DNA of 64,000 nt from the NCBI RefSeq assembly GCF_900215575.1, contig NZ_OBEJ01000001.1, forward strand, positions 944,588 to 1,008,587, in the 5' to 3' direction. This stretch comes from Natronoarchaeum philippinense (GTDB lineage: Archaea; Halobacteriota; Halobacteria; Halobacteriales; Natronoarchaeaceae). The notes beneath the pieces are model-generated. The model ran no database searches, was not told the origin of the DNA, and worked only from the letters and a program-made list of their open reading frames with translations. The position numbers were made by a program, and so were the translations under genes. This document shows positions 43,134 through 45,331 of the stretch, in pieces (the first letter of the stretch is position 1; each line of letters starts with the position of its first letter).

Positions 43134-43565
43134 ATGAAACACTGTATCAACTGCGGTTCCCAAATCGACGACGACGCGGAGGTGTGTCCCGACTGTGGGG
43201 TCAATCAATCCACGTCCATCGATGGCGGCCACCGGGAGCGACCGGACGACGAAAAGTACTGCGTCGAGTGCGGTGAGCTGATCAATAGGCGAGCAGAAAT
43301 ATGTCCGCACTGTGGCGTTCGCCAACCCGGAACCGGGTCGTCTGACTCGGATAAGATCGCGGCGGGCGTACTGGCGCTCCTGCTCGGTGGACTGGGCGCG
43401 CACAAGTTCTACCAAGGGAACGTGAAACTCGGCGTCATCTACCTGTGTTTCTTCTGGACGGGGATCCCTGCGCTCCTCGGGATCGTCGAGGGGATCCTCA
43501 TGCTGGTCGCCGACGACGCCGAATACGAGGACAAGTATGCCGACGGAAGCCTGCTCGGGAGATAA
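43134..43565 (+). CDS. TM2-domain protein with two zinc ribbons
   Basis: A 143-residue membrane protein. Two zinc ribbons occupy the N-terminal half: CINCG/CPDCG (residues 4-22) and CVECG/CPHCG (about 43-61). A TM2 domain follows (about 72-135) with LLGGLGAHKFYQGNVKLGVIYL, two helices joined by a short loop. TM2 proteins are widespread but of unknown function; the duplicated ribbon is less usual than one. It has a possible TATA element (ATATGCTTAA, near 43092). Confidence 0.88.
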   Translation: MKHCINCGSQIDDDAEVCPDCGVNQSTSIDGGHRERPDDEKYCVECGELINRRAEICPHCGVRQPGTGSSDSDKIAAGVLALLLGGLGAHKFYQGNVKLGVIYLCFFWTGIPALLGIVEGILMLVADDAEYEDKYADGSLLGR

Positions 43566-43633: not shown

Positions 43634-45331
43634 ATGACCGTCAGCGGCGGGACCTGTAGCCACTCGATCCGAGTGGTCGAAGACGACGCCTATCGAGACC
43701 GAGACGTTCCGGACGGCAGTCTCGACGACGACGGCGTGTGGCACTGCCCGCACGACGCGCGCGAGCGCCGGTCCGAAGCGCCGGACGCCGAAGTCAGCCG
43801 AGATGGGGGTGCAGAGCTGTGTCTCTTTCACGCGCCGATCGAGACGAAGCGCGATGCCGAAGTCGCCGAGGCGTTCGCCGCGGCGGTCGGCGGCGACACC
43901 GATTCCGACACCGACCTCGCCGACCGCCGTCGGACCGAGTTTGTCGACGCCGAGTTCGGTGAGCTACGATGGCCTGAGGGCGGCGTCGTCGGTGACGCCG
44001 ACGACGAGGCGCCGATCTACCTCTCGCACGCGACGTTCGACGGCGGCGTGGCGTTCGAGGGCGCGCGATTCGCCCGCGGTGCCTTCTTCACCGGCGCGAC
44101 GATTACGGGGCGGGCCAACTTTTCGGGCGCGACGTTCGAGGGCGACACGCGGTTCAACGGCGTCACGTTCCGCGAGGACGCCGCGTTCGATCACACCCGC
44201 TTCGAGGAGGAGGTACGATCCGGCGGCGTCACCTTCGAGGGCGAGGCCGACTTCTACCGCGCGGCGTTCGAGGCGGATCTGAACCTCAAGTACGCCACGT
44301 TCGCGGGGAAAGCGACGTTTTGGAAGGCGACGATCGACGAGACGGTGCGGTTCAACGACGCGGAGTTTCGGCCGCTCGACGACGGCGTCCACGAGCTACA
44401 GGAGCTCGATCTCACGAACGCCAATTTCACCGACGCCACGCTCCGGGACGTGAACCTAGAAGCCAGCGGGCTGATACAGGCCAAACTGTTCGGAACGGAC
44501 CTGCGGGGCGCGCGGCTGTACGGTGCAGTCCTGACCGACTCACGCATCGATGACGACACGCGATTTCTCGGCCCGCCGGGCGCAGCCCGGTTCTCGCTCG
44601 GCGGGCTGGTCCGGTTCTGGCACAAGCCCCGGTGTGCCTACGATCCGAGCTACGACGGCGAGACGGTCGGGGAGGACACCGCCGACCAGCGCAACCGGGC
44701 CAAGAGCACGTACCGGTCGATCGGCGAAGTCGCCAGAGCGGCGTCCCGACCGGCGTTGCAGTCGCTGTGTTTCGTCAATCGACAGGACATCCACCGGCGG
44801 GCCCACCGCGACGAGCTGTCGCGCGGACTCGACCACGCGAGTGCGGACAGCGATACCGGCGGGCACAGTGCGGACGGCGATGCCGGCGGGCACAGTGCAG
44901 GCGGCGATGCCGCCGGGGCGCCGTCGACGCGCGGTCGACTCACCGAAGGCACACGAAATGCGCTGTTTCGGACGGTGAAGCTGTTCCAGTGGCTCCGAGC
45001 GGAGCTGTCGCGGTGGACGCTGCTCTACGGCGAGAGCCCGTGGCGAATCATCGCCACGGGGCTGACGATCATCGTGGGGTTCGCGCTCCTGTACCCGCTC
45101 GGCGGGCTGGTGCCGAACGCGGGTGCGGCGGTCACGTACGCGACCATCGCCGACGATCCGCGGCTGTTCTTCGACAGCGTCTACTTCAGTACACTGACGT
45201 TCACGACGCTCGGGATGGGCGATTACCAGCCGATCGGGATCGCTCGCGTGCTCATGTCCGTCCAGACATCGCTGGGCGCGATTACGGTCGCGCTGCTCGT
45301 GTTCGTGTTCGGCCGGCGAGCCGCACGGTAG
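43634..45331 (+). CDS. Pentapeptide-repeat protein fused to a two-helix K+-channel domain
   Basis: A 565-residue fusion. Residues 1-75 have Cys/His pairs (TCSHS, WHCPHDA, LCLFHAP) that may bind zinc. Residues about 125-300 form a right-handed pentapeptide beta-helix (repeats such as ATFDGGVAFEGARFARGAFF). A helical linker with three nine-residue repeats follows (about 403-429), then an ion-channel module (about 475-560): one helix, the pore loop TLTFTTLGMGDYQP and a second helix. The filter reads TLGMGD rather than TVGYGD, so K+ selectivity is plausible but altered. The N-terminal part may sense a ligand and gate the pore. Confidence 0.88.
   Translation: MTVSGGTCSHSIRVVEDDAYRDRDVPDGSLDDDGVWHCPHDARERRSEAPDAEVSRDGGAELCLFHAPIETKRDAEVAEAFAAAVGGDTDSDTDLADRRRTEFVDAEFGELRWPEGGVVGDADDEAPIYLSHATFDGGVAFEGARFARGAFFTGATITGRANFSGATFEGDTRFNGVTFREDAAFDHTRFEEEVRSGGVTFEGEADFYRAAFEADLNLKYATFAGKATFWKATIDETVRFNDAEFRPLDDGVHELQELDLTNANFTDATLRDVNLEASGLIQAKLFGTDLRGARLYGAVLTDSRIDDDTRFLGPPGAARFSLGGLVRFWHKPRCAYDPSYDGETVGEDTADQRNRAKSTYRSIGEVARAASRPALQSLCFVNRQDIHRRAHRDELSRGLDHASADSDTGGHSADGDAGGHSAGGDAAGAPSTRGRLTEGTRNALFRTVKLFQWLRAELSRWTLLYGESPWRIIATGLTIIVGFALLYPLGGLVPNAGAAVTYATIADDPRLFFDSVYFSTLTFTTLGMGDYQPIGIARVLMSVQTSLGAITVALLVFVFGRRAAR
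44840..44920 (+). repeat. Three 27-bp in-frame repeats
   Basis: Units at 44840-44866, 44867-44893 and 44894-44920 encode SADSDTGGH, SADGDAGGH and SAGGDAAGA in the channel fusion's linker. The first two differ at two bases; the third is more diverged. Confidence 0.85.

Follow-up and report, generated by a model that had tools for sequence, protein, structure and literature searches.

The 64,000-nucleotide stretch of Natronoarchaeum philippinense DNA analyzed here (the window) contains a gene whose product joins a Cys/His module and pentapeptide repeats to a C-terminal membrane pore (Table 1). The gene upstream of it (43134-43565, forward strand), which ends 68 bases before the channel start, encodes a membrane protein with a double zinc ribbon and a TM2 domain.

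Table 1. Coordinates of the pentapeptide-repeat/channel-type gene of the window and of the features of its product
Feature	Position	Strand	Basis
Coding sequence, apparently standalone gene, 565 aa	43634..45331	+	ATG start; Pfam; purifying selection (comparison with KK48)
N-terminal Cys/His module (C8, C38-P-H40, C63-x-F-H66), putative zinc site	43634..43843	+	
Pentapeptide-repeat region, residues ~101-312, presumed beta-helix	43934..44569	+	Pfam Pentapeptide_3 and Pentapeptide; AF2 strands
Linker with CxYDPxY and AKSxYR...LQSxCFVxRQD motifs	44570..44818	+	Family alignment
Low-complexity Gly/Ala/Asp/His spacer, part absent from KK48	44819..44941	+	Pairwise alignment
RWTLLYGESPWR ahead of TM1 (slide-helix position by analogy)	45011..45046	+	Family alignment
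TM1	45047..45106	+	Hydropathy; low-confidence AF2 helix at 469-489
Pore helix and selectivity filter; TTLGMGD at 45203-45223	45173..45223	+	DNA, translation, alignment, PDB profile
TM2; G548 (45275-45277) conserved, Q544 (45263-45265) where Glu is usual	45239..45328	+	Translation, alignment

Three lines of evidence indicate a real gene with real domains rather than a chance reading frame: (i) the Pfam matches to Pentapeptide_3 (1.4e-25, three stretches), Pentapeptide (1.9e-8), and Ion_trans_2 (1.8e-9, residues 500-562) all lie above the curated cut-offs, with Pentapeptide_4 scoring under its own; (ii) the five-residue periodicity is 8/10, the best value among 500 shuffles of the same residues being 5; and (iii) the gene is under purifying selection. 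Tandem repeats of the A(D/N)LXX type are thus present by both Pfam and the shuffle control. A search of the whole genome with Pentapeptide_3 returned three matches, all of them inside this gene. The closest named copy, from Salinibaculum sp. KK48, likewise has a GMG filter, with 61 percent identity in the best segment and 66 percent over the pairwise alignment. Against this copy, dN/dS (NG86) is ~0.26 for the whole gene and 0.15 for the pore, values that are rough because dS is ~1, and the pore is the slowest-evolving segment of the gene.

The N-terminal Cys/His region pointed out in the preliminary description carries C8, C38, H40, C63, and H66. This ligand set is conserved in a 15-row alignment of relatives, with C8, C63, and H66 unchanged in 15/15 rows, and the middle Cys of the motif varies among pore ORFs (CPH, CC, or CD/CR). 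Pfam gave no zinc-finger match in the region, which would bind a metal, probably zinc. The linker behind the repeats is a candidate coupling element.

The membrane part runs from YGESPWR to FGRRAAR, which directly precedes the stop codon, and a YG-E-type motif precedes TM1 in the filter-bearing relatives and is looser in the filterless ones. Hydropathy places hydrophobic stretches at residues ~468-501 and 534-565, on either side of a filter that reads TTLGMGD (residues 524-530) in the DNA and in the translation, which confirms the altered filter noted earlier. The sequence T-L-G-M-G-D departs from the signature T-x-G-[YFL]-G by the Met at its center and keeps the Thr, both Gly, and the Asp. 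From a hand alignment with KcsA, we take M528 to stand at the position of the signature tyrosine and G548 at that of the TM2 hinge glycine.

Homology of this TM-P-TM arrangement to the K+ channel pore superfamily is shown by the Ion_trans_2 match and by comparison with the PDB. A profile built from 14 pores matched 221 PDB sequences at E<=1e-3, and the best 60 of these 221 were K+-channel entries (TOK1, Kv, KCa3.1, KcsA, KirBac, and others), with the single exception of an entry labelled only 'Transporter'; the lone pore sequence found the same K+-channel group with weaker matches. The AF2 models, computed for the monomer, were of low confidence: the mean pLDDT was 40.7 for the full-length protein with one homologue in the alignment (68-77 and 62-75 for the blocks with strands at residues 131-180 and 201-240, 62 for 111-120, and lower elsewhere) and 57.0 for the pore alone. 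Foldseek searches with these two models gave no match at E<=0.001. The union of N-terminal pentapeptide repeats with a K+-channel-type pore, as first described from the sequence, is borne out by Pfam matches above the cut-offs on both sides.

The fusion extends well past this gene, contrary to the emphasis of the preliminary description: it recurs in many haloarchaea and beyond. Matches to the repeats or to the pore (a count of either part rather than of fusions, with at most three candidates scored per genome) were found in 204/392 genomes of the order, representing 64/95 genera. The distribution, a check suggested by the preliminary description, is patchy by these matches. To describe the family, we assembled 154 distinct pore ORFs from 183 loci, including the KK48 locus (L031) and three plasmid loci. 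This sample takes most of the listed matches, leaving out at least four (G039:C1:481011, G003:C1:2605864, G114:C1:842601, and G035:C1:1237445), and its frequencies are biased toward the window protein since it was drawn by similarity to that protein. The repeat score was passed by 125/154 ORFs, and the motif C..C-x-[FW]-H was likewise found in 125/154; after one shuffle of each ORF, both counts fell to 0/154. Under a stricter rule demanding two upstream Cys, the Cys/His motif is present in 119/154 ORFs and absent from 35/154. Motif and repeats occur together in 112/154, and no more than two residues lie beyond the pore match in 150/154, so that a sensor is to be expected on the N-terminal side; several of the remaining pore ORFs are fragments or look decayed. 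When a random 60 of the 154 were submitted to Pfam at E<=0.001, Pentapeptide_3 was matched in 56 and Ion_trans_2 in 52. Pfam-confirmed fusions from outside the order comprise a locus of the same phylum (L178), a protein encoded by a plasmid of Nostoc, and an ORF of Aeromonas caviae that lacks annotation and carries C..C..C-x-W-H at its start. In the plasmid records seen, such proteins are mostly annotated as 'pentapeptide repeat-containing protein' and in a few cases as 'potassium channel family protein', and these records give no description of a function.

Some members of the family have unusual forms. Two relatives of ~1500 residues with provisional start codons (L032, 3579-8168, reverse strand; L034, 701-5197, forward strand) have HEAT repeats followed by pentapeptides and Ion_trans_2, an architecture read from a single Pfam run on L032. 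A relative of 1108 residues (L035, 1808-5131, reverse strand) contains many near-identical repeat units, suggesting a recent expansion of the repeat region. The copy of Halalkalicoccus jeotgali (L054, 4664-5795; NC_014298) is annotated as three separate ORFs and is probably a decayed gene; its matches on two plasmids agree in coordinates and identity.

Taken as sequence evidence, these comparisons support the description of the window protein as a K+-channel-type protein with a putative N-terminal sensor. Our preferred explanation, in which we place roughly even confidence, is that it is a K+-channel-type protein gated from the N-terminal side and acting as an accessory channel. The protein would be a two-TM subunit of the K+-channel superfamily with a cytoplasmic N-terminal sensor, in which a Cys/His cap (probably holding zinc), a pentapeptide beta-helix, and the conserved linker would lead into the YGESP slide helix and TM1, and the pore would be built from four such subunits. 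Its opening or closing would follow from a shift of the slide helix and TM2, driven by binding or assembly at the beta-helix. Attached sensor domains can indeed give gating to pore modules, as described in passages of PMC12332018.

Filter classes were read from the alignment columns of 152 pores, two ORFs with short pore matches (L042 and L082) having been dropped; this reading was used instead of a regular-expression count that left 31/154 filters unread. The filter center is GYG in 90 pores, GFG in 17, GLG in 10, GMG in 5, and GYS or SYG in 9, with 21 pores having another center or none. Thus, a G-[YFLM]-G filter is present in 122/152 pores, GMG is rare, and the altered filter of the window gene is one of several filter changes in the family. 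The five GMG rows, one of which is a 195-aa fragment reading GMGG, all keep the filter glycines, the pore-loop Pro, and the TM2 Gly, and four of the five keep the Asp. A pore with the GMG filter is probably still permeable to K+, because the backbone oxygens do the selecting; in work on the Shaker filter, the Tyr side chain reportedly proved not essential for K+ selectivity. According to passages of PMC12332018, functional K+ channels may carry GYG, GFG, or GLG; GMG is missing from the filters that these passages name.

The GMG rows also differ at TM2 residue 544, which is Asn or Gln in 5/5 of them and Glu in 119/126 of the GYG, GFG, GLG, and GYS-SYG rows; the 21 other rows have Glu in 14 cases, Gln in 5, His in 1, and a gap in 1. 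The absence of the TM2 Glu from all five GMG members may mean an altered pore function. The link between a Met filter and a non-Glu residue in TM2 (Fisher p 2.7e-6, shared ancestry ignored) was considered as a case of coevolution and set aside: GMG needs two changes on the tree, a single origin is also possible, and the link therefore stays an association.

Five of the 21 other rows are the fragments L041 and L072 and the variants SLGDGD (L130), STIGFPD (L052, from Nostoc), and TSLGSGE (L174). Sixteen relatives, picked by eye from the alignment, lack the K+ signature and keep both TM segments; the loop contains no G-x-G in 15 of them and reads TGNGS in L165. A GRRA end is found in 7 of the 16 and similar basic ends in the rest, and all 16 have the Glu of the YGE motif. 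The existence of these relatives implies that K+ conduction is not a constant feature of the family. One group of them (L073, L077, L078, L080, L081, and L180) forms a clade of support 98-99 that spans four haloarchaeal families and has loops such as TLVLGG at the filter position.

Because the filter appears to have been lost repeatedly, a non-channel role of the membrane part is the main rival of the gated channel. The membrane part would then be an oligomeric anchor or coupling module and the beta-helix the functional part, with the filter a decaying relict, GMG marking an early and the filterless state a late stage. Such a role is consistent with the open frames of 496-908 aa kept by the 16 filterless relatives and with the alignment of their profile to the filter-bearing one (113 columns, E 1.9e-41). 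The six most divergent among them, with HMM scores of 24-44 bits, are still matched to the filter-bearing profile when taken alone (E 1.1e-20); against the PDB, they found only three KirBac entries with E of 0.017-0.066, which is not significant in itself. On a quickly built tree of 144 rows with long branches flagged (after removal of 8 rows that were fragments or distant), the filterless state needs seven changes, at least five of which are required by branches with support of 95 or above, but these changes of filter state may include regains. A plasmid protein of Aureimonas sp. AU20 (L203, 1087-2508, forward strand) combines pentapeptides with a YGES two-TM end and shows no K+ filter recognizable by eye and no Ion_trans_2 match; hence, filter loss may not be confined to archaea. 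Passages of PMC3369850 describe a K+-channel-like protein of Labrenzia whose canonical filter is incomplete and which failed to rescue K+ uptake in yeast. Against an anchor speak the G-[YFLM]-G filter retained by most of the collected pores and the pore being the most constrained segment of the window gene relative to KK48, and filterless modules may conduct other ions. We regard the anchor as rather doubtful for the window protein. A broader interpretation embraces both states: in a cross-domain family headed by a beta-helix, the K+-channel fold would be kept and the filter be optional, and the filter-bearing, GMG, and filterless members would grade from K+ channels to a membrane switch, non-K+ or non-conducting, under the same N-terminal sensor. 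This we put forward tentatively, as possible rather than probable.

The surroundings of the gene were compared between copies. In KK48, the channel gene sits between mutS-like and mutL-like genes on the same strand (L031, 3195-9728, by eye), so its upstream neighbor is mutS-like, unlike the zinc-ribbon/TM2-domain gene of the window. A mismatch-repair role was rejected, since these flanks are not repeated in the window genome, where the mutS and mutL matches lie on another contig, separated by ~190 bases that could not accommodate a channel gene; the KK48 arrangement is accordingly taken as a positional difference only. A same-strand upstream gene within 100 bp was counted in 37/54 cases, a figure set aside because the stop-to-stop ORF starts shorten the gaps. 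As is to be expected in an archaeon, scanning for bacterial-type promoters gave no hits.

Another explanation is that the protein is an effector triggered by stress or by an invader, in which a signal at the beta-helix would open the pore, K+ would escape, and the cell would be depolarized. The patchy distribution in the order would fit this role, as would the occurrence in some genomes (e.g., G070) of at least three pore ORFs among the matches listed, the plasmid-borne copies, and the contrast between a very variable repeat region and a constant C-terminal module. Conflict systems with variable domains, pentapeptide repeats included, are described in PMC7159879, but its passages contain no channel fusion. 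The window protein, scanned alone, matched no PADLOC family at E<=0.1, and no recurrent partner gene was found around 86 loci, the largest neighbor cluster reaching 10/86 with genes called by a simple codon-position G+C rule that could miss partners. Phage records searched with the window protein gave no match, and none of the 115 stretches matched in a scan of viral contigs encodes a relative. Considering both sides, we think an effector role unlikely.

The preliminary description had assigned high stakes to the gating of this channel on the ground that K+ is the main osmolyte. This claim is weakened by the patchy matches and by the one other genome of the genus examined, where only a decayed pore remnant (TLGMDD) was found, so that the function is dispensable. 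It is further weakened by a second channel in the window genome: the other Ion_trans_2 match, a protein of 384 aa with the filter TVGYGD and a long C-terminal part that is RCK-like by eye.

The beta-helix had been proposed as a sensor of a ligand or of DNA shape; as a DNA-shape sensor, or as a DNA mimic, it would make the pore secondary. The ground for a role of this DNA-related kind is that pentapeptide proteins of the MfpA/Qnr type mimic DNA; the window protein matches the MfpA/Qnr models of NCBIfam weakly, at 12-18 bits against cut-offs of 240-500, and haloarchaeal proteins are in any case expected to be acidic on the surface. We consider such a role highly improbable.

If the gated-channel explanation is correct, these proteins represent a K+-channel-like class that has its sensor on the N-terminal side and none on the C-terminal side and is common among organisms living on K+. 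With its natural series of GYG, GFG, GLG, GMG, and filterless members sharing a single scaffold, the family offers a ready-made experiment on the signature Tyr and on the need for a filter, and also on the re-use of the K+-channel fold after filter loss. Since some relatives have no K+ filter, the ion that passes the pore is a testable question. None of the papers listed in searches of the open-licence literature describes a fusion of pentapeptide repeats with a K+ channel in its title or abstract opening, and passages of PMC7159879, PMC8195603, PMC11237479, and PMC11953307 mention pentapeptide repeats and channels separately.

With the 2TM K+ channels (KcsA, KirBac, Ion_trans_2), the window protein shares TM1, the pore helix, the G-x-G-D filter, the TM2 glycine, and profile homology, whereas it differs in its large N-terminal Cys/His and repeat part, in the Met at the Tyr position, and in having nothing after TM2. 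The C-terminal immunoglobulin-like cytoplasmic domain of Kir/KirBac is accordingly absent. MthK-type channels, in which a C-terminal RCK domain follows the pore, belong to the same pore superfamily; in contrast, the window protein would have its sensor on the N-terminal side, and FGRRAAR ends the chain right after TM2 with no RCK domain. An arrangement unlike KcsA or MthK, as initially claimed, is therefore correct, the pore being the C-terminus of the protein. The repeat pattern and its Pfam match are shared with pentapeptide repeat proteins (PF00805, PF13576; Alr5209, MfpA, Qnr), but here the repeats belong to a membrane protein and score far below every listed NCBIfam equivalog cut-off. The architecture first read from the sequence is thus true and unusual, yet the proteins that have it make up a widespread family: those of haloarchaeal plasmids, of Nostoc pNsp_i, and of Aeromonas caviae differ from the window protein in their filters, and the Nostoc copy in lacking the Cys/His motif, and all of them share with it both the repeats and the pore.
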